Shown here one piece after another: positions 322-46,997 of a stretch of 64,000 nucleotides of DNA (its first letter is position 1; every line of letters begins with the position of its first letter). The position numbers and the translations under genes were made by a program. Below the pieces are notes generated by a model. That model worked only from the letters and a program-made list of their open reading frames with translations, had not been told where the DNA came from and did not search any database. Origin of the DNA: Verrucomicrobiia bacterium (GTDB lineage: Bacteria > Verrucomicrobiota > Verrucomicrobiia > Limisphaerales > JADLHS01); assembly GCA_011525685.1 (NCBI GenBank), contig WYBW01000025.1, forward strand, positions 1 through 64,000, written 5' to 3'.

Positions 322-3300
322 TCACTTCCCCTGCGGCAGCGGTGCGGCAGTTTCGCCCGCCGGGATGCGCCAGTGTCGCCATTGCAGTTTCTGCGCAACA
401 TCATCCAGCAGCGAATACGCCACGGGCGTGACCACCAGCGTCAGCAAAAGGCACAACGCCTGTCCGCCAATCACCACCACGGCCACGGCGCGGCGTTCTT
501 CCGCGCCCGGGCCGGTCCCCAAAGCCAGCGGCGTCATGCCCGCGATCAGCGTGAGCGTGGTCATCAGAATCGGTCGCAGCCGTTCACGGTTGCCCTGGAG
601 AATCGCGGCCAGGCGTTCCATGCCCCGCTCGCGCAGCTTGTTCATGTGGTCAATCTGCAGAATGGCGTTCTTCTTCACCACGCCAAACAAGACCAGCAGC
701 CCCAGCGCGGAATAGAGGTTGATGGTTTGTTGGGCGACCAGCAGCGACAAAAAGGCAAACGGCACGGAGAGCGGCAGCGAGAGCAGGATCGTGAACGGAT
801 GCACCAGACTCTCGAACTGCGACGCGAGAATGATGTACATCAGGATGACCGAGAGCAGAAACGCCCAGAGAAACTCGGTGAATGTCCGCTCCAGTTCCCG
901 CGCGCGGCCGGAGACGCGGGTCGAGTAGCCGGTCGGCAAACCCATCTTTTCGACCTCGGCGCGCAAGGCGGCGATGCGATCGGCCTGGGCGTAACCTGGT
1001 GCCACGGCCGCGCGCAGGCTGACCTGGCGCTGTCGGTCCAGCCGGTCAATGCGGGAGGCGGTCGTTGTCGGCACCAGCTTGACCACGTTGTCGAGCCGGG
1101 TGAGACCGCTGCCGCCGTTGCGGGACGGCACCCACAGGCGCGCGATGGTTTCCGCGTCATTGCGGTCGCCTTCCCGCAGGCGCACCTGCACGTCGTAATC
1201 CTCGTTCATCGTCTCGTCGCGGAAGCGCGTCACCCGGTCGTCCCCGCCCACCATGATGCGCAACGCCGTGGCGATGTCCTCGGTGTCCACGCCGAGATTG
1301 GCGGCGCGCTCGCGGTCTATCTGGACGCGCAACTCCGGCTTGTCGAGCTTGAGCGTGGTGTCGGCATCCTGCAGGCCGAGCGCGGGAGCATTGGTCCGCA
1401 GCCGCTCGGCATACTCAAACAGCACATCCAGGTCGGGACCGAGCAGGGCGAAATCAATGTCGAAGTTCGGCCCGCCGCCGATGAAAGTCTGCGGATTGCG
1501 GATGGCGATGCGGACGTCGGAGAACTTTCGCAGGCGCTGCCGGATTTCCTGTTGCACCTCGCGCTGGGTGAAATTGCCCTGGAAGGCGTGCCAGGGCGGC
1601 CATTGGAGCAGGCGCGCCCAGCCGAAGGTGCGTTGCTCATGCGGAATGAGCCGGACGTAAAAGTTGGCGCTGTTCAACCCGCCGAAAAACCCGCTGCCGA
1701 CGGTGGTGAGGATGAACTGGACACCGGGAACGCGCGTCAGTTCCTCCTCGACCTTGAGCGCCACGTCGTTGATCGCGCCCAGGCCGGTGCCCTCGGGCGC
1801 GCTGACGCGCACGTCAAATTCGCCCTCGTCCACGTTGCTGGGCAGGTATTCCTGCCGCACGAACTGGTAGAGCGGCACGGAGGATGCCATGACCGTCAGC
1901 GCCAGGGCCGCCACCAGCCAGCGACGGCGCATTGCGAATCCCAGCGTCCGCATGTAGAAGGAATCAATCACGTGATAAAAGCCGGTGCGGGAACGGGGTT
2001 GGGCTGAGGTGCGCTCTCCCTCACCCTGGCCCTCTCCCGCTGGGAGAGGGGACAGCAGGCTTCCGCTCTCCTTGATTCCAGCGTGCTCCGGCCGTTTGCC
2101 GCCTCCTGTCACACCGGGAGACGGAGTGCGACTCTCCCTTTCCCTCAGGGAGAGGGCCGGGGTGAGGGTGGACTCGTCGTCCAGTTGTTGCCCGTTCCCA
2201 CGCTTCACCCGCAACAACCGCGCGCTCATCATGGGCGTGAGCGTGAAGGACACCAGCAGGCTGACCAGCACCGCCACCGCCGAGGTGATGCCGAATTGAT
2301 AGAGGAACCGTCCCGAAATGCTCGACATGAACGAGACGGGCACGAAAATCACCACCAGACTCAAGGTCGTGGCCATGACGGCCATGCCGATCTCGGCGGT
2401 CGCCGCCCGGGCCGCCTCGAAGGGCCGCATTTTCTTCTCCTCGATGAAGCGAAAGATGTTCTCGAGCACCACGATGGCGTCGTCAATCACGATGCCCACC
2501 ATCAACACCAGCGCAAGCATGGTCACGCTGTTGAGGGTGAAGCCGACCGCCTTCATCATGCCGAACGAGGCAATGACCGACGCCGGAATGGCCACGGCGG
2601 CAATCACGGTGGCGCGCCAGTTCCGCATGAACAGCAGCACGATGATGCTGGCCAGGATGCTGCCCAGCACGAGGTGGGTTTTGATTTCGTGCAGCGCCTG
2701 GTAGATGTAGCGCGATTGGTCGCGGATGATCTCCATTTTCAGATCGCCCGGAAGCTGGGCTTCGAGCGCCCGCAACCGTTGCTTCACCCCTTCAATCACC
2801 GCCACCGTGTTGGCCCCGGACTGGCGGATGACCTCCAGCGTCACGTTCATTTCCCCATTCAGCCGGGAGATCGAACGTTCCTCCTTGGTGCCATCCTCGG
2901 CCCAGCCGATGTCCCGCACCCGGATGGGCGAGCCGTCCCGGGTGGCGATGACCAGATCGTTGAACTCCCGCGGGTCGGTCAGCCGGCCCATGGTGCGGAG
3001 GGTTTGCTCGCGTTGCTCGGTGGTGACGTTGCCGCCGGGCGTGTTCGCGTTCTGCCGGTCCACGGCGTCGCGCACGGCGGTGATGGGAATCCGGTAGGCG
3101 GCCAGCCGGTCGGCATCCACCCACACATTGATGGCGCGCTCCAGGCCGCCGATGACACTCACCTGGCCGACACCGGGGGAACGTTCGATGTGCGTCTTGA
3201 TGATCTTGTCAGCGATCTCGGTCAGCTCGCGTCGCGGGCGCGGACCGGAAACGGCGATGGTGAGAATCGGTTGCTGGTCGGTGTCGGACTTCGAGATCGT

Positions 3301-5768: not shown

Positions 5769-8700
5769 CTACTTGGCCACCGGCGCAACGTCCACTGGCA
5801 TCGGGTGGGGTTCGCGCCAGCGCCGCAACTTCGCGGCGAGATCACTGAAGAATGTGTAAACGACCGGCACAACGAACAGCGTCAGGAAGGTGCTGGTCAT
5901 CAGGCCGCCTACCACCGCGATGCCCATCGGCCGGCGGCTTTCCGCACCGGCGCCAAAGCCAATGGCAATCGGCAGAATGCCGGCGGTGGTGGAAAATGCC
6001 GTCATCAGAATTGGCCGCAGACGGATCATTCCCGCCTGGGTCATGGCTTCGTACGCTCCCAGGCCGGTGGCCATCTGCTGATTGGCAAACTCGACCAGCA
6101 GAATGGAATTCTTGGTGACCAGGCCGATGAGCAGCACCAGACCCACGAGGCTGAACAGGTTGATGTTCATGGCGGGGATTGGCGGATACAGCCCCAGTTT
6201 GCCGCCAAAGTCCAGCAGCCAAAGCAGACCAAACGCGCCGATGGCCGCCAGGGGCAGCGCGAGCATCACCGTGATCGGGTGGAGGAAGCTCTCGAACTGC
6301 GCCGCCAGCGTCATGTAGATGATGACGATGGCCAGACCCAGCACCCACCAGACTTCGGCGCTGGTTTCGCGCAGACTCCGGGCGTCGCCGCCCCAGGCGT
6401 ACAGAAATCCCGGTGGCAATTCCTTGGCCAGCATCTCCTCCACTTCTGCCACCACCGGCCCGATGGGCACGACGCCGGTGGACGCGGTGATGCTGGCGCT
6501 GCGGAGGCGGCCATAATGGTTGATCGAGTTGGGCGCGGCGCCCTGGGTGCGCGTTACGAGGCTGCTGAGTTGGATCAACTCTCCCTGCTGGTTGCGCACG
6601 AAGTTCCGGTCCAGGTCCTGCGGGGTCAGGCGCGAAGCGCGCTCGAGTTGCGCCATGACGTAATACTCCTTGCCGCCGACCTTGATGCGGCTGAGATCCA
6701 GGCCGCCGAAGAGAATTTGCATCGTGCGCGAGATGTCCTGGATGCTCACGCCCAGGGCCGCGGCCCGGCTGCGGTCAATCGTCACCCGCAACTCCGGTTT
6801 GTCCACCTCGAATCCGACGCGGATGTTGCGCAGGTAGGGCTGGCCGTCCTTGGTCATCGCACGAAGTTGGTTCGCGAACCGCTGCGACACCTCGTTCAAT
6901 GCGTCCAGGTCCTGGTTTTGCAGAATCAACTCGAACGGCGAATCGCGAAAATTGACCTCGATGGCCTTGGGCAGATTGGCGATGGCGAATCCGCCCTCGA
7001 CCTCCATGAAAAAGCGCTGGGCGATGCCGCCCGGCCCGTGAACGATCTCCTGCACGGATCGCTCGCGCTGGCTGCGGTCGGAGAAGCGTACGAAAACCAC
7101 GCCCATGTTGGCCTGGCCGGGGCCGGCGAAACCCGGCGCCACCATTGCGCCATAGGATTCCACCTCGGGCACCGCGGCCACGATCGCCTCGGCCTTTTGC
7201 AACTGCCGGTCGGTAAACTCGCTGGTGGAACCGTTCGGCGTGAACACAATGCAAAACATGCGGCCCTTGTCCTCGAGCGGGAGGAAATCCTGCTCCAGCC
7301 CCTTGTAGGCGAACACCATCACCGCCAAGGTTGCCACCGTGACCAGGAGCATGACCAGCCTATGGTGCAGCGCCCAGCGCAGTCCCCGGCCGTAAAGGCG
7401 CGACACGGCGGCGAAACCGCGCTCGAACCAGTTGAAGAGCGAACCGTGCTTGATGCCGGCCAGCGGCTTGAGCACACGCGCGGCCATCGCCGGCGTCAGT
7501 GTCAACGCCACGAACGCCGAGATCACCACCGCACCGGAAACCGCCAGCGCAAACTCGATGAACAACCGCCCGGTGGTGCTTTTCTGGAAGGCCAGCGGCG
7601 TAAACACGGCCACCAGCGAGATCGTGATGGCGATGACGGCAAAACTGATCTCCTCCATCGCCTTGAACGCCGCCTTCATCGGCGTCAGGCCTTCTTCGAC
7701 GTGACGGTAGATCGCCTCCAAGACCACGATGGCGTCGTCCACCACGATGCCGATGCTCAACACCAACGCCAGCATCGTGAGGATGTTCACCGAATACCCG
7801 AACGCATAGAGCATGGCGAACGACCCAACCACCGACACCGGAATGGCCACGGCCGGCACGATGGTCGAGCGCAGATTCCGGAGGAAAACGAAAATCACCA
7901 GCACCACCAGCACAAAGGCGATGCCGAGGGTTTCCCAGACTTCCGTGATGGCTTTCTCGACGTAGATGCTGGAGTCGTAGGCCACCCAGAGTTCGCAACC
8001 CTCGGGCAGCGTCGGTTGGATGGCGGCGATCTCGGCGCGGATGCCCTGGGCCACCGCCACGGTGTTGGCCTTGGCCTGCTTGACCACGCCGAGAAACACG
8101 CACGGCTTGCCCCGCGCGCGCGCGATGGTGCGGTAATCCTCCGCCCCTTCCTCAGCCCGGCCAATGTCGCGCAGCCGGACCAGCGTCGTTCCCTCCGCGC
8201 GCACGACCAGGTCGTTGAACTCCTCGGCGGTGCGCAGTTCGCCCCGCGTCTGGATGGTCATTTCGCGGTCGAGATTCTCCACCCGACCGCTGGGCAGCTC
8301 GATGTTCTGCTCCTGCAAGGCGCGTTCGACGTCGAGCACCGTGACCTGGCGCGCGGCCATCTTGTCCGCGTCGAGCCAAAGCCGCATGGCGAACCGCTTT
8401 TCCCCGCCGATCATCACCGACGACACTCCGGCCACCCCTTGCAGGCGCGGTTTGATCTGGCGCTCGGCGAGGGTGGTCAGTTCGACCGTCGAGTAACGGT
8501 CGCTGTTGAGCGCGTTCCAGATGATGGGCTGGGCGTCGGAATCCTGCTTGGCGATGACCGGTTCGAAAATGTCCCGGGGCAGGTTGCCGCGCACGCGTGA
8601 AACCCGGTCGCGTACGTCCTGAGCCGCAATGTCAATGTCGCGCGACAGATCGAACTCGATGGTGATGACACTGGCGCCCTCGCGGCTCTCGCTGCGGAGC

Positions 8701-39574: not shown

Positions 39575-40129
39575 TTAGACCCTCAGCACGCCGCGAAATC
39601 CCCGCGCTGCGTAATACGACTGCGCGCCGTTGCAACCGATGAAGACGCGGCCGTAACTCCGGCCGCCCCAGAGCGCGCCGCCCTGCTCGCGAAAATCGGC
39701 CGGGGTGGCGATCCAGGACGATGTCTTCGTGTCGAAGTCGCCCAGCTTTTGCAGCGCGAGGTATTCCTCCTCCGTCAACAGCGCGATGCCCATCTCCGTC
39801 GCCATGTCCATCGCCGTGGTTTTCGGGCGGGCCTCCTTCCGCGACAACCAGCCTTCGCGGTCGTAACACACGCTGCGCCGGCCGGCCGGACTTTCCGGCG
39901 CGCAATCCATGAAAACGATCTCGCCGGTCTGCTTGTCCTGCGCCACCACGTCCGGTTCGCCGCCGGTGCGTTCCATTTCCGCGAGCGACCACAGCCTGTC
40001 CGGCCTGGCCTCCAACCGCGCCTGCACCCTGGCCCACATCAGTCCAGGGTGACGGGTCTTGTTCGCGTCAAACCGGGCTTTCAACACCGCCAGCAACTCT
40101 TCGCGTTGTTTGGGGGATAATTTTCTCAT
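39575..40129 (-). CDS. DUF4256 family protein
   Basis: ATG 40129 gives 184 residues starting MRKLSPKQREELLAVLKARF. Conserved features of DUF4256 are visible: MERTGGEPDVVAQDKQTGEI, FMDCAPESPAGRRSVCYDRE, then GIALLTEEEYLALQKLGDFD and the C-terminal GGRSYGRVFIGCNGAQSYYA. Function unknown. No export signal. It is upstream partner of the cupin gene. A thiC fragment begins immediately on its 5' side, so this gene lies at the border of the accessory region. Confidence 0.85.
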   Translation of the reverse strand: MRKLSPKQREELLAVLKARFDANKTRHPGLMWARVQARLEARPDRLWSLAEMERTGGEPDVVAQDKQTGEIVFMDCAPESPAGRRSVCYDREGWLSRKEARPKTTAMDMATEMGIALLTEEEYLALQKLGDFDTKTSSWIATPADFREQGGALWGGRSYGRVFIGCNGAQSYYAARGFRGVLRV

Positions 40130-40133
40130 GACT

Positions 40134-40622
<489 letters not shown>

Positions 40623-40641: not shown

Positions 40642-41043
40642 TCATTTGAGCAGCGCGGTGAAACCCGCTTGCTCGAAATGTTTGTCGCCGGTGAGGGCCT
40701 GGGTAATCCCCTCATCGCGCATGACCACGAAAGACAAGCAGTCCGTCAGCGACCACTCCTTGTCCTGTCGCTGCTCGAAGAAATCCACGCCGCGTTGAAA
40801 AAGACGGGTGTCGGCAGGAATGATTTTGACGCGGGGATGATTGAGGAGCGAACGGTAGAGTGCCACGAAATCGGCGCGGTCATTCGGGTGGCAATAAGCG
40901 TCGCCAAATTCGGCCAGCACCCATTCCGTGGTGAGAATGTGGAGTTGCGGATCGCGGGAAAATTCGGCGGCTTGCGAGTGACGATCTTCGCGGAAATCAA
41001 GCAGCGCCAGAAAGTAAAACGTGTCGGCAAAGACGGTCGTCAT
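40642..41043 (-). CDS. vapC: PIN-domain toxin (VapC family)
   Basis: Probable type II toxin RNase. The 133-residue protein starts MTTVFADTFYFLALLDFRED with the first Asp, has a central E in TTEWVLAEFGDAY, and the third acidic motif EWSLTDCLSFVVMRDEGITQ, ALTGDKHFEQAGF. This is the complete VapC layout. Its start overlaps the antitoxin stop by 4 nt. The pair is flanked on both sides by thiC scraps and similar short sequences, suggesting it arrived with the island. Confidence 0.88.
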   Translation of the reverse strand: MTTVFADTFYFLALLDFREDRHSQAAEFSRDPQLHILTTEWVLAEFGDAYCHPNDRADFVALYRSLLNHPRVKIIPADTRLFQRGVDFFEQRQDKEWSLTDCLSFVVMRDEGITQALTGDKHFEQAGFTALLK

Positions 41044-41249
41044 TTCTTCGGCTCGCCACGGAGATAGTGGCCGTGGTTGAGGGCGTAATCCTTCGGCAGA
41101 TGCGGGCGCGGCTTGGCGAGCCGTTCCACCGCCGCGAGGAATGGATCATCCGTGCCGATGGTCTCAATCTTCACCGCTGCGCCCTCCGGGAGCTTTGTTC
41201 CCGGCGGCAGGACGACCAAGCCGTTGACGATTTTTCCGGTCACACTCAT
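41040..41249 (-). CDS. vapB: VapB-like antitoxin
   Basis: A 69-residue partner of the PIN toxin. MSVTGKIVNGLVVLPPGTKL, PEGAAVKIE forms a short beta-rich N-terminus like that of small AbrB-like or DUF104-type antitoxins. The tail AKPRPHLPKDYALNHGHYLR, GEPKK would contact the toxin. Overlap with the toxin gene is 4 nt (ATGA). It would bind its own promoter in 41250-41300; no clear palindrome is visible there. Confidence 0.78.
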   Translation of the reverse strand: MSVTGKIVNGLVVLPPGTKLPEGAAVKIETIGTDDPFLAAVERLAKPRPHLPKDYALNHGHYLRGEPKK

Positions 41250-41267
41250 GGCTATTTTCTACGCTGA

Positions 41268-41600
41268 ATTTAGGTCAAAAGCAAGCCGCCGCGCACAATC
41301 CTCTTGGAAATGCGGGTCGCGGCACAATCGTCCGACCAGCGCGGCAGACAGCGCGCCCGCGCCAGCCCAGGCGTCGAGCAGATGCACTTCGCTCCGGGGA
41401 ATCTCGAACAGCGACGCCGTGAACTCCGCGACCGGATTGGGCGTCAGGAACTGCCCCTACTCGTGCTGCTTGTCCAAGTCGTCCGGCGATGCCGGAGCAT
41501 ACGGCGAAAGCGTGGGCGCTTTACCGGCAATGTCGTTCGGATGGATGGCGGCGGTTGTCACAAGCTCTGCCTCGATGATAGCAACGTCGTGGGCGCTATC
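41268..41600 (-). pseudogene. Fragment of an adenine-specific DNA methyltransferase-like gene
   Basis: The minus frame reads DSAHDVAIIEAELVTTAAIH, PNDIAGKAPTLSPYAPASPD, DLDKQHE, an amber codon (near 41458), then GQFLTPNPVAEFTASLF and HLLDAWAGAGALSAALVGRL before stopping near 41268. GQFLTP and the LLDAxAGAGALS region are the opening and SAM-binding motif I of N6-adenine methyltransferases. The catalytic NPPY part is absent, so this is a broken remnant. It may have been a restriction-modification gene replaced by the intact system at 41.8-44.9 kb. Confidence 0.7.
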
Positions 41601-41675: not shown

Positions 41676-41772
41676 ATGCTTGGCCATGTTGTCCTCGATC
41701 ATGTGCAACGGCAACTGGCGGCAACGTGGTTCAACTTGGGCAAAACTTTTCAAATTCAACTCAAGTAATTAT
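41676..41772. repeat. Second thiC scrap plus AT-rich repeat shared with 40496-40560
   Basis: CTTGGCCATGTTGTCCTCGA then TCATGTGCAACGGCAAC is a short copy of thiC (bases near 45512). It is followed by TTCAACTTGGGCAAAAC..TTTCAAATTCAACTCAAG, which resembles TTCAACTGGGTTAAAATG..TTTCAAATTCAACTCGCG at 40496. The two compound copies bracket the VapBC pair and the methyltransferase remnant. 41620-41770 holds no gene. Confidence 0.65.
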
Positions 41773-42297
41773 TCACACAACACCAAAGCTCTTTGTAACA
41801 AATGAATCAAGGCTTCCAAAATCTCGGATAATGCTGTTGTTTCTGTCAGAACTAATCCGCATGGCACTACGGTAGGAACGACAAAGATACGGCTGGAGGC
41901 TGGAGGCTGGAATGGCGATTTCTCTAGGTTTTGAAATGAAAATAATATTCTCCCAAGTCCACTCCCCCTTCGGCCTACCCCAAAGAGTTTCTGCAAGTTG
42001 ATCGTTTTGCAACTTTCCAATCAAACGTGAAACGACGCGGTAATGGAAATCAAAAAAACCGAGAACGCAGTCGCCCGGTTCTATTGTCTTCAACATCGTA
42101 AGCGTCCGTTGGTTTGTCCTGATGCCCCACGCGAAGAATCCACCGGCTTGCTCGCGCCAAGAGCGAAGCTCTGCGTGCTTCTCTGGGGGTGTGTTCGAGA
42201 AAACAAAACCCTCGGAAACCGGGTTAAGAATCGTTTTCCGGAAATTTGAGCGCGCGTTGCTTTCTCCAGCACAAAAAACGAAAATATTTCTCATCAC
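41773..42297 (-). CDS. Hypothetical protein, PUA/EVE-like candidate, last gene of the restriction-like operon
   Basis: A 174-residue protein I do not recognise with certainty. The part LTMLKTIEPGDCVLGFFDFH, YRVVSRLIGKLQNDQLAETL, WGRPKGEWTWENIIFISKPR, EIAIP has the rhythm of EVE/PUA-type small beta-barrels: ligand position after a GD turn, then a W-x-x-x strand. Such barrels read modified bases and are common beside or fused to restriction nucleases. It lies 32 nt behind the nuclease candidate on the same strand. The local base composition is AT-richer than the rest of the window. The start at 42297 gives MMRNIFVFCAGES. Confidence 0.5.
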   Translation of the reverse strand: MMRNIFVFCAGESNARSNFRKTILNPVSEGFVFSNTPPEKHAELRSWREQAGGFFAWGIRTNQRTLTMLKTIEPGDCVLGFFDFHYRVVSRLIGKLQNDQLAETLWGRPKGEWTWENIIFISKPREIAIPASSLQPYLCRSYRSAMRISSDRNNSIIRDFGSLDSFVTKSFGVV

Positions 42298-42329
42298 AGA
42301 GTTCGTATCTAAGCTTGCACTGAATCATT

Positions 42330-43055
42330 TCAAATCGCTCCGTGCTTGCGCATGAAATCCTGCAACGGCTGGTAGGGAATGCGTTTCAACTTTCCAAAGT
42401 TGGTATCCTTCTCAAAATCGGCTGCGGTTAATCGTTTGCCAGCAGCGTATTTTCCCTCGCTAGATTTCTTTACAACTTTTGGAACGCCATCAAACCAAAG
42501 TCCGCCTCGCTTTTTCAAACTCGCATCTCGCGCACGCACACACTCGACCATCGAAAACACGCCAATGTCTATGATGTAAGGAGAGCAACCTCCGGTTTCG
42601 TCCTCTTTGAGTTGTGCCGCTGCCAGCAGGAGTGCGTCGTTTTCCGGGTGAATCACGTCCATCGTTACGTTCTCCTTGAGCCGGGCGCTCGGCTCGCGAG
42701 CGGTCGGCGGTCGCTTCATGGCCAAGTCTGCATTGTCAACGAAGAGTCCCTTGAGTTCGACGCGCTTTCCTGAAGTATGGACGTAGTCTGGGTAGCCTTC
42801 CCGTTGACCAATGATGCCCGGTGCTTTTTTGAGGCCGATGCTTCGCAGACGCTTGGCGTTTTCATCGTCGGTTGCCAAGTGTTCAATCTGCGGAAGAATT
42901 GCGTCGAGCAACGTGTTGACGATGACGGCAATCTGACTCGGCTCAAAGCCGGGCAGCGCTTGGTTTGGGATGGAGAGCCAGTTGATTTTGAGACCGATGA
43001 GAGGTTGAAAGACCTTCCGCAGCGATTCCAGTTCGAGGGGTGTGATGTCAGCCAT
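42330..43055 (-). CDS. Putative restriction endonuclease, PD-(D/E)xK type
   Basis: A 241-residue protein with a helical N-terminus (MADITPLELESLRKVFQPLI). A nuclease-like core follows: GYPDYVHTSGKRVELKGLFV holds P89-D90 and E100-L101-K102, the PD...ExK spacing of restriction enzymes. Later residues DVIHPENDALLLAAAQLKED and SPYIIDIGVFSMVECVRARD look like strands of the same fold. I cannot name a family. It is between the specificity gene (3 nt upstream) and the EVE-like gene, which supports the restriction role. No helicase/translocase gene of type I is present. Confidence 0.6.
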   Translation of the reverse strand: MADITPLELESLRKVFQPLIGLKINWLSIPNQALPGFEPSQIAVIVNTLLDAILPQIEHLATDDENAKRLRSIGLKKAPGIIGQREGYPDYVHTSGKRVELKGLFVDNADLAMKRPPTAREPSARLKENVTMDVIHPENDALLLAAAQLKEDETGGCSPYIIDIGVFSMVECVRARDASLKKRGGLWFDGVPKVVKKSSEGKYAAGKRLTAADFEKDTNFGKLKRIPYQPLQDFMRKHGAI

Positions 43056-43058
43056 GAA

Positions 43059-43703
43059 TTACCTTATCGTCGAGTTCAGAAGCTCCTCGGCTTCCATGTA
43101 GTCGCGCCATGCGCGTTCCGCGCAAGCATTCAAGCAGCGATGGATTTTCTCGCGCACGGACTTGACCGGGACTTCGACGGGAGTGCGAAGCAAAAGCTCG
43201 CGGTCCAAACGGGGTCGTGTGCCGCCCGAACCAATGGGCAGGCTCTGAAGAAACTTCGGCGACTGGAGAAACGCCCACCAAAAATAAACCAAGCCGTCTT
43301 TGGGAGTGACGTGAACAAACTCCGACTTCACGGGGAAGAACATCGGCGATGGCTCGCCCAGCCAAGATGCCTTGGGTGTCACGAGCGCGTTGCCCAAGTA
43401 GGCGCGCATCGTTCCAAACAGCAGGCAGCTTTCTCCGACAACGGGAACACGTTCCGCTTGGATTCCAGTCGCAAGCTCAAGAGAAAAGACCGGGATTGTT
43501 CCCCGGTGTATGTGGCGATACTCGATTGGCAAATACTTGAATCCGCCGACGCGAGGCGAACGACCCTGAACTTTTTGAACCGAAGCAAAATGCTCCAGGG
43601 TCTCGCTCTGCATTTCCTCACGGTAGGCATAAGGATTCCAAACGCCAGTTTGCAAAGCATCCGGGGCAACGACCGACAGAAAAAATGTTCCGTTCTTTTT
43701 CAT
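43059..43703 (-). CDS. Restriction-modification specificity subunit (single target-recognition domain)
   Basis: ATG 43703 gives 214 residues, about half a normal HsdS. The sequence FSLELATGIQAERVPVVGES, CLLFGTMRAYLGNALVTPKA is the LLxGxRxYLG-type core of S-subunit target-recognition domains. SVREKIHRCLNACAERAWRD is the conserved helical spacer that binds the methylase. One TRD means that two copies must pair to read a bipartite site. The gap to the methylase stop is 7 nt, and to the nuclease start 3 nt. Confidence 0.8.
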   Translation of the reverse strand: MKKNGTFFLSVVAPDALQTGVWNPYAYREEMQSETLEHFASVQKVQGRSPRVGGFKYLPIEYRHIHRGTIPVFSLELATGIQAERVPVVGESCLLFGTMRAYLGNALVTPKASWLGEPSPMFFPVKSEFVHVTPKDGLVYFWWAFLQSPKFLQSLPIGSGGTRPRLDRELLLRTPVEVPVKSVREKIHRCLNACAERAWRDYMEAEELLNSTIR

Positions 43704-43710
43704 GAGGCAG

Positions 43711-44931
43711 TCATGCGGTTGCGTTGATGCACTCCAAGACGCGCGGGTCGCCTGCAATTAAGTCCAGCGAGTTTTCGCCAAAATAAGTCGTGCGCGAATT
43801 CAGGGGAAAGCCGACGGTTGGTGCATTGGCAAAAAACGCTTTGTGAGCCTGCTGTTGGCGGCCAGCTTTCTTTCGCAGTTGGATAATGTCCGCCCGAGTA
43901 GTGGTGTTTCCGGTCAGATAAAAGACGCCCTCTGGCAGCGTGACCACGCCACAAAGCTCCCAGTGTCGCTCCGCCGAACGCCTCAACTGCTCGAACTCGG
44001 AATTGACGATTAGCGAATGTGGCAACAAACAAACCAAGCTGCCGCCCGGAGCAAGCAAGTCCAGGCATACATCCAGGAACAGCGCATCGCTGTTGCGATA
44101 ACCGAGTCCAAATAGTTCACCGGGCTTCGCAACTCTTTCGAGCGGGAGCGAGAACGGTGGATTTGCCAAGATACCGTGAACTTTACCCCGTAGATTCCGC
44201 AACTCGGCATCAGCATCATAGAGGTTGAAGCACGAGAATTCCAAATCGTGATGCGCCGGAGCGGAAAGCGCCAAAACCAATTCCGTTAATCCAACAAGCA
44301 TCCGGTCAACATCGTTGCCGACCAATCGGCAGGGTGTGCTTCCCCAACGCCGCGATGCCTCACAAAGAAACGTGCCGCCACCACAAGTTGGGTCGAGCAA
44401 AATCGCGCCCGGCTGGACCGGAAGCAGTCGGGCCATCGCCGCCGCGATGGTTCGCGGCGTGAAAAACTTTCCTGAGCCTTCACGAAAGCGGCGACCAAAA
44501 AAGAACTGATACCACGTCGCCAAGTCACGGCCTTGCGGGTCGCCAGCCACAATGCCATCAAGAATCGAAAGAACCTGCTTATCGTGCGCAACGATGTTCA
44601 AGGCAGCAAAACCCCGCTCCACGGGAAAGAACGAAAAGTCACGGCGACACGCCTTCTGCGTGTCGAGATAGCGCGAAGCCAAAACCAGAAAAGCGTCTTC
44701 GCCTTCAACACCGTATCTACGAAGTGCGTTATGAAGCGCAACCGAAGCGGCGGCTGCGATTGGTTGCTCGCGCTGATTCAAGCCATCCAACCCATTCAAA
44801 CTGGCTTGCAGGGGGCGGGACATCGCCCCATTCGGAACACTATCTTCCTTAAGTCGGGAGACACGATGCTTGCGAATGGTGTATCGAACCGTCGTCGGCT
44901 TGCGGGCTTGGATTGCGCGTTTGGATGCCAT
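43711..44931 (-). CDS. N6-adenine DNA methyltransferase (HsdM-like, compact)
   Basis: The modification subunit. ATG 44931 (GTG at 44937 also in frame) gives 406 residues. Motifs: GSGKFFTPRTIAAAMARLLP (the FxTP entry), motif I ILLDPTCGGGTFLCEASRRW, an ND-x-D acidic turn, motif IV HGILANPPFSLPL and GGSLVCLLPHSLIVNSEFEQ. It is shorter than ordinary HsdM (about 500) because the N-terminal helical region is small. It begins 14 nt after the thiC stop codon on the same strand, so read-through from the TPP-riboswitch controlled transcript is plausible. Confidence 0.88.
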   Translation of the reverse strand: MASKRAIQARKPTTVRYTIRKHRVSRLKEDSVPNGAMSRPLQASLNGLDGLNQREQPIAAAASVALHNALRRYGVEGEDAFLVLASRYLDTQKACRRDFSFFPVERGFAALNIVAHDKQVLSILDGIVAGDPQGRDLATWYQFFFGRRFREGSGKFFTPRTIAAAMARLLPVQPGAILLDPTCGGGTFLCEASRRWGSTPCRLVGNDVDRMLVGLTELVLALSAPAHHDLEFSCFNLYDADAELRNLRGKVHGILANPPFSLPLERVAKPGELFGLGYRNSDALFLDVCLDLLAPGGSLVCLLPHSLIVNSEFEQLRRSAERHWELCGVVTLPEGVFYLTGNTTTRADIIQLRKKAGRQQQAHKAFFANAPTVGFPLNSRTTYFGENSLDLIAGDPRVLECINATA

Positions 44932-44945
44932 AGCCACTTTCTTTG

Positions 44946-46997
<2,052 letters not shown>

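Follow-up and report, generated by a model that had tools for sequence, protein, structure and literature searches.

A candidate Type 1½ restriction-modification operon with an uncharacterised endonuclease family in a Verrucomicrobiia bacterium

The stretch of DNA analysed here (the window) comprises the first 64,000 nucleotides of contig WYBW01000025.1 from a Verrucomicrobiia bacterium of the order Limisphaerales (assembly GCA_011525685.1). It carries on its minus strand a group of four genes, three of which probably make up a restriction-modification (R-M) system of the 'Type 1½' (type IIH) kind. In the order of reading, the genes encode a methylase subunit (M), a specificity subunit (S), a putative endonuclease (R), and a small EVE-like protein (Table 1). 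All four open reading frames (ORFs) listed in the initial annotation of the window are present. The R start lies 3 nt past the S stop, and the EVE-like gene starts 32 nt past the R stop. The ATG at 43703 that was taken as the start of S is conserved in homologs, and a TTG at 43757 would give an upstream extension. When the window is compared with its closest homologous locus (L002, described below), dN/dS is 0.035 for M, 0.033 for S, and 0.045 for R. Such purifying selection indicates that the three ORFs are coding.

Table 1. Coordinates of the operon and of its 3' boundary within the window.
Feature	Position	Strand	Description
M	43711..44937	-	GTG start at 44937, or ATG at 44931; 408 aa; gamma-class N6-adenine DNA methyltransferase subunit
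S	43059..43703	-	214 aa; half-size specificity subunit, one target-recognition domain (TRD)
R	42330..43055	-	241 aa; putative PD-(D/E)xK endonuclease, unclassified family
EVE-like gene	41773..42297	-	174 aa; PUA-type probable modified-base reader; probable lineage-specific passenger of the operon
33-nt sequence	41730..41762	-	3' of the EVE-like gene in the window, directly 3' of R in L002; marks the module's 3' boundary in both

The assignment of M and S to type I-like families, proposed from the sequence at the outset, was borne out by profile searches. M matches PF02384 in Pfam (8.6e-18) and type I methyltransferase models in PADLOC. Its sequence contains DPTCGGG and ANPPF, which we take to be the S-adenosylmethionine (SAM) motif and, in NPPF, the methylase motif. 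S has no match in Pfam, and its matches to Specificity_I models of PADLOC are weak (best 0.012). When a profile of four S homologs was compared by hhalign with the type I Methylase_S domains (ten loci, from 12 fetched), the two aligned with 90.7% probability (E 1.3e-6), the five control pairs (R-TRD, S-EVE, EVE-like-TRD, R-EVE, and R-S) all remaining below 1%. Since the domain aligns only once within S, the protein is a half-size subunit with one TRD. The window thus has two of the components of Type 1½ (type IIH) systems: a separate gamma-class (NPPY/F/W) adenine methylase subunit and a separate single-TRD S subunit.

Searches of Pfam, PADLOC, NCBIfam, PHROGs, and the PDB sequences gave no match to R with a useful score. 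The putative catalytic pattern pointed out in the initial annotation, PD-x9-ExK, reads P89-D90-x9-E100-L-K102 (PD-x9-ELK) and is invariant in 8/8 aligned homologs, and a C-terminal stretch, DTNFGK-x-KR, is also invariant in the eight aligned representatives. A structure model built from an alignment of 7 rows (pLDDT 79, pTM 0.78) aligns best with SwaI (Z 8.0, 151 residues, rmsd 4.0), followed by Eco15I and HincII (both Z 6.5), EcoRV (5.9), NlaIV (5.7), PvuII (5.3), and BglI (5.2). Among the 50 rows shown in this fold comparison (VIA rows), 49 are restriction endonucleases. A Foldseek comparison with viral structures gave no match at E<=0.001. The predicted likeness is modest in strength and uniform in kind, being to type II endonucleases. 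With this likeness, and with M-S found beside R in other genomes, the nuclease reading of the 241-residue protein withstands the refuting conditions set in the initial annotation. A non-nuclease identity for R was considered and rejected, the matches to Pfam GST_C_3 (0.2) and NCBIfam ComEA (0.094) being far below cut-off. The conserved residues and the predicted fold together suggest that R represents an uncharacterised restriction-enzyme family, which is the main new item of the locus. No title on the family was found in the literature, but REBASE and most subscription papers lay outside the search, so that an existing description could have been missed.

Homologs of R occur across phyla. Among 37 candidate stretches, three have them, in metagenome-assembled genomes (MAGs) of Verrucomicrobia (L002, 96% identity), Omnitrophota (L003, 86%), and Deltaproteobacteria (L004, 76%). 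More distant homologs were found in six of 50,697 phage records, those six being from Streptococcus suis (45.5%), and in virus contigs (L008-L010, 39-44%; 3 of 58 candidate stretches). A viral scan with the first R alignment found none, and two scans with wider R alignments found only L008-L010. Plasmids gave no match with three R proteins as queries. Among the genomes of the phylum, R is present in 1/387, the window's own, and in the order in 2/320, the own genome and G399; the latter shares contig number and coordinates with the genome of L002 and adds no extra case. In L002, L003, and L004, M, S, and R have the same order and strand as in the window, and M-S-R is therefore a conserved unit; the identity of M to these loci is 94, 82, and 51%, respectively. 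In the S. suis records (three examined of the six), M and S are divergent from R, which is preceded by a gene for an XRE-type helix-turn-helix (HTH) protein (HTH_3, 1.3e-5); in one of the three, a transposase gene lies in between. In L008 and L009, R and M-S are convergent. In these S. suis phage records, Tet(O) is annotated a few kb from the R-M genes, and no paper on the R loci was found by record names, host, and prophage.

The three genes differ in how fast they have diverged. Between the window and L004, identity is 76% for R, 51% for M, and 54% for S. Between the window and L006 (S. suis), L008, and L009, it is 45-47% for R, 20-22% for M, and 16-24% for S. R is thus the slowest-evolving part both within and between lineages, and, judged from sequence identity, the R family is paired with two very different M-S lineages.

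The operon contains no HsdR, as had been noted initially. The only full HsdR of the genome is on another contig, C119 (HSDR_N, 1.3e-46), where it belongs to a complete type I operon together with an M of 574 aa and an S that has two TRDs. A second match, of 22.6 bits, is below cut-off, contains one stop, and is negligible. An orphan type I M-S pair served by an HsdR elsewhere was therefore rejected, the sole full HsdR having a complete operon of its own. The system is also not a classical type I R-M system, in which an HsdR nuclease and translocase is part of the system. A BcgI-like type IIB system was rejected as well, in agreement with the initial annotation, because M and R are separate ORFs in the window, L002, L003, and L004.

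Precedents for the composition of the operon are known. AhdI, PshAI, and BsaBI have methylases of 2M+2S with single-TRD S subunits and a separate type II endonuclease (PMC3874165; PMC4081073), and an M2S2 enzyme of 170 kDa with a 25-kDa S has been described (PMC2878638). In these systems, M is gamma-class and separate, S has one TRD, a small type II endonuclease is encoded by a gene of its own, and HsdR is lacking; the window has the same composition, with R as the putative endonuclease. There are differences from AhdI: the genes in the window are linear (M-S-R) without a C gene, whereas AhdI is convergent with C (PMC5333194); M is 408 aa in the window while M.AhdI is 60 kDa; the R family is unclassified; and the EVE-like gene is extra to all three systems. 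In BstXI, M and S are also of type I style and a type II endonuclease is encoded separately nearby, but its S has two TRDs (PMC4335341). BcgI, too, works with M and S subunits, and its targets are bipartite (PMC3874165), but nuclease and methylase are fused in one RM subunit, unlike the separate R here. The initial annotation, which suggested a possible new type II variant, left AhdI, PshAI, and BsaBI out of its comparison. The type II-like character stands, the layout is already known, and the claim is reduced to the endonuclease family as the main novelty.

We consider with good confidence that M-S-R is a Type 1½ (type IIH) R-M system, with the EVE-like protein as an optional addition. This reading draws on the M and S domains, the single TRD, the M-S-R order, the presence of R beside M-S in S. 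suis, L008, and L009, the invariant PD-x9-ELK pattern, the endonuclease-like predicted fold, the precedents of the same composition, and the assignment of the only full HsdR to the C119 operon. The HTH gene that precedes R in S. suis is a further point, a C gene being found before R in the AhdI-like systems among the C-protein architectures described (PMC5333194). By analogy with AhdI, an M2S2 methylase would assemble from two M and two half-S subunits and mark an adenine, presumably at N6, in each half of an interrupted palindrome, a likely type of target. R would be a separate, probably homodimeric, EcoRV-like PD-(D/E)xK endonuclease that alone cuts unmethylated copies of this site, and ATP-driven translocation would play no part. 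The EVE-like protein would be a recent acquisition that reads modified bases and is dispensable for the basic cycle.

Several results weigh against this reading. Foldseek gave no match for R at E<=0.001; the best was Sau3AI (4.2e-3, TM about 0.25), and EcoRV and PvuII also appear in the top ten with weak scores. The fold match is itself modest, as the top Z of 8.0 is within the range that the tool calls "common" and the model behind it comes from only 7 rows. R is likened to R.AhdI, R.PshAI, and R.BsaBI by system layout. Neither a C gene nor any other timing control turned up in the window operon. The higher conservation of R than of M and S is unusual for an endonuclease that has to match its methylase. 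Finally, the 51.7-kb virus contig L010 has R at 5980-6783 and no N6_Mtase match; its R is either a lone phage-borne endonuclease, or the contig is incomplete.

The EVE-like protein was described initially as PUA/EVE-like and as the fourth member of one operon. The first description holds in part. The protein matches phrog_14240 (1.1e-6), although in a search with that profile 18 of 194 matched, mostly in its C-terminal half, which the window protein lacks. There is no hit to Pfam EVE (PF01878) at E<=1, and the hhalign comparison with EVE (all 15 loci) gave a weak 38.6% over 35 columns. A single-sequence model (pLDDT 35) was unusable. Relatives of the protein form the N-terminal domain of larger proteins: one of 310 aa from haloarchaea that ends in Mrr_cat (L022, 1.7e-6), one of 559 aa with an AAA_5 domain (L060, 3.4e-7) that we read as McrB-like, and one of 376 aa without Pfam match. 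These fusions, to Mrr in one case and to AAA in another, make it probable that the protein reads modified bases. Its profile matches 6/387 genomes: its own, G347, G140, and three in which the match (E 1e-4 to 9e-4) falls inside ORFs of 1013-1082 aa. These three, of which one (L061) was read, are likely chance matches. Among relatives of the genome, 1/96 has the protein, namely its own, and viral contigs and phages have none.

Membership of the EVE-like gene in the unit did not survive comparison. In nine R-holding loci, which represent seven independent places (L007 is a near copy of L006, and L018 is on the same contig as L010), tblastn found nothing below E 1 for the EVE-like gene. In L002, the 33-nt boundary follows directly after R without an EVE-like gene between. 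The gene lies between R and the shared boundary, and was either gained in the window or lost in L002. Its GC content of 47.2% is below that of R, S, and M (53.3-55.8%) and that of the window (61.7%). It is thus probably a local add-on. The same absences and the same difference in GC speak against the best of the other explanations, which is compatible with the Type 1½ reading, namely, that all four genes are working parts of a single system and that the EVE-like protein enables R or M-S to act on modified DNA. The gene is, however, on the same strand with a short gap after R, and a comparable role has been proposed for standalone EVE proteins found next to type I R-M systems (PMC7641849), which are a precedent for the accessory gene. 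Those are likewise small EVE-type proteins next to an R-M operon, whereas the window protein is beside a type II-like system, has no Pfam EVE match, and has its nearest relatives fused to Mrr or AAA domains. In S. suis, where the same R family occurs, a PvuRts1I-like, SRA-bearing modification-dependent endonuclease gene adjoins S (L006 2629-3468, minus strand; Pfam 1.2e-29 and 2.5e-27). On balance, we think a four-gene system improbable.

Slightly less probable still is an explanation in which M2S2 recruits an R that by itself is not specific. The system would then be a minimal, motorless type I-like enzyme, where S reads the DNA and R cuts at or near the site. The far greater conservation of R than of S and M between lineages is expected if specificity resides in S alone, and the closeness of the S and R genes in the window is in line with it. 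However, the predicted fold of R is like that of type IIP enzymes, which need no partner to recognise their sites; in S. suis, R and a controller-like gene make up a transcription unit apart from M-S; and L010 has R where no methylase was found. That M is part of a different defence system linked to methylation, for example MADS, is very improbable: its best PADLOC match is mad2 (3.4e-30, residues 120-380), but the NCBIfam MAD2 score of 66.9 bits falls far short of the cut-off (720), no MADS model is matched by S, R, or the EVE-like protein, and the other top matches of M are ordinary type I methylases.

Returning to the Type 1½ reading, its consequence for annotation is that, with the R family missed by the profile libraries searched, an operon of this kind would pass for an orphan type I methylase. 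The family would also make it possible to study, in a natural case, how a type II endonuclease keeps matching its methylase when the S subunit of the latter has diverged so far that it is hard to recognise. A bolder, and in our view rather unlikely, proposal is that R is a new type II endonuclease family forming the fixed core of a modular system. It would have been combined with two distant Type 1½ M-S lineages in three architectures (linear, divergent, and convergent), which either converged on one target or lend R their specificity. Readers of modified bases (the EVE-like protein here, the SRA/PvuRts1I-like one in S. suis) would have been recruited repeatedly against phages with modified DNA.

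The surroundings of the operon contain the following. M has a full-length thiC (44946-46946, minus strand) immediately upstream, and downstream of the operon there is a partial thiC-like copy (40166-40459; 84% over 294 nt). In L002, which is from another family of the order, a 3' part of thiC (2654-3094, 77%) comes after R. The module seems to sit at thiC with a partial duplication in both places. No tRNA was found in the window, and a promoter and terminator scan gave 3 against 1.4 expected and 10 against 5.9 expected, numbers that were not used as evidence. At 41253-41597 (minus strand) is a remnant with an in-frame stop (GQFLTPNPVAEF...LLDAWAGAGAL), which by its motif we take to be the start of an N6-adenine methylase; it may be what is left of another R-M gene next to the operon. 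A PIN-domain gene follows at 40642-41249 (minus strand; PF01850, 9.9e-10), with a short ORF of at least 68 codons before it. The two look like a VapBC-type toxin-antitoxin pair, the antitoxin being assigned by position only. Further on, a DUF4256 protein is encoded at 39575-40156 (minus strand; PF14066, 2e-80).
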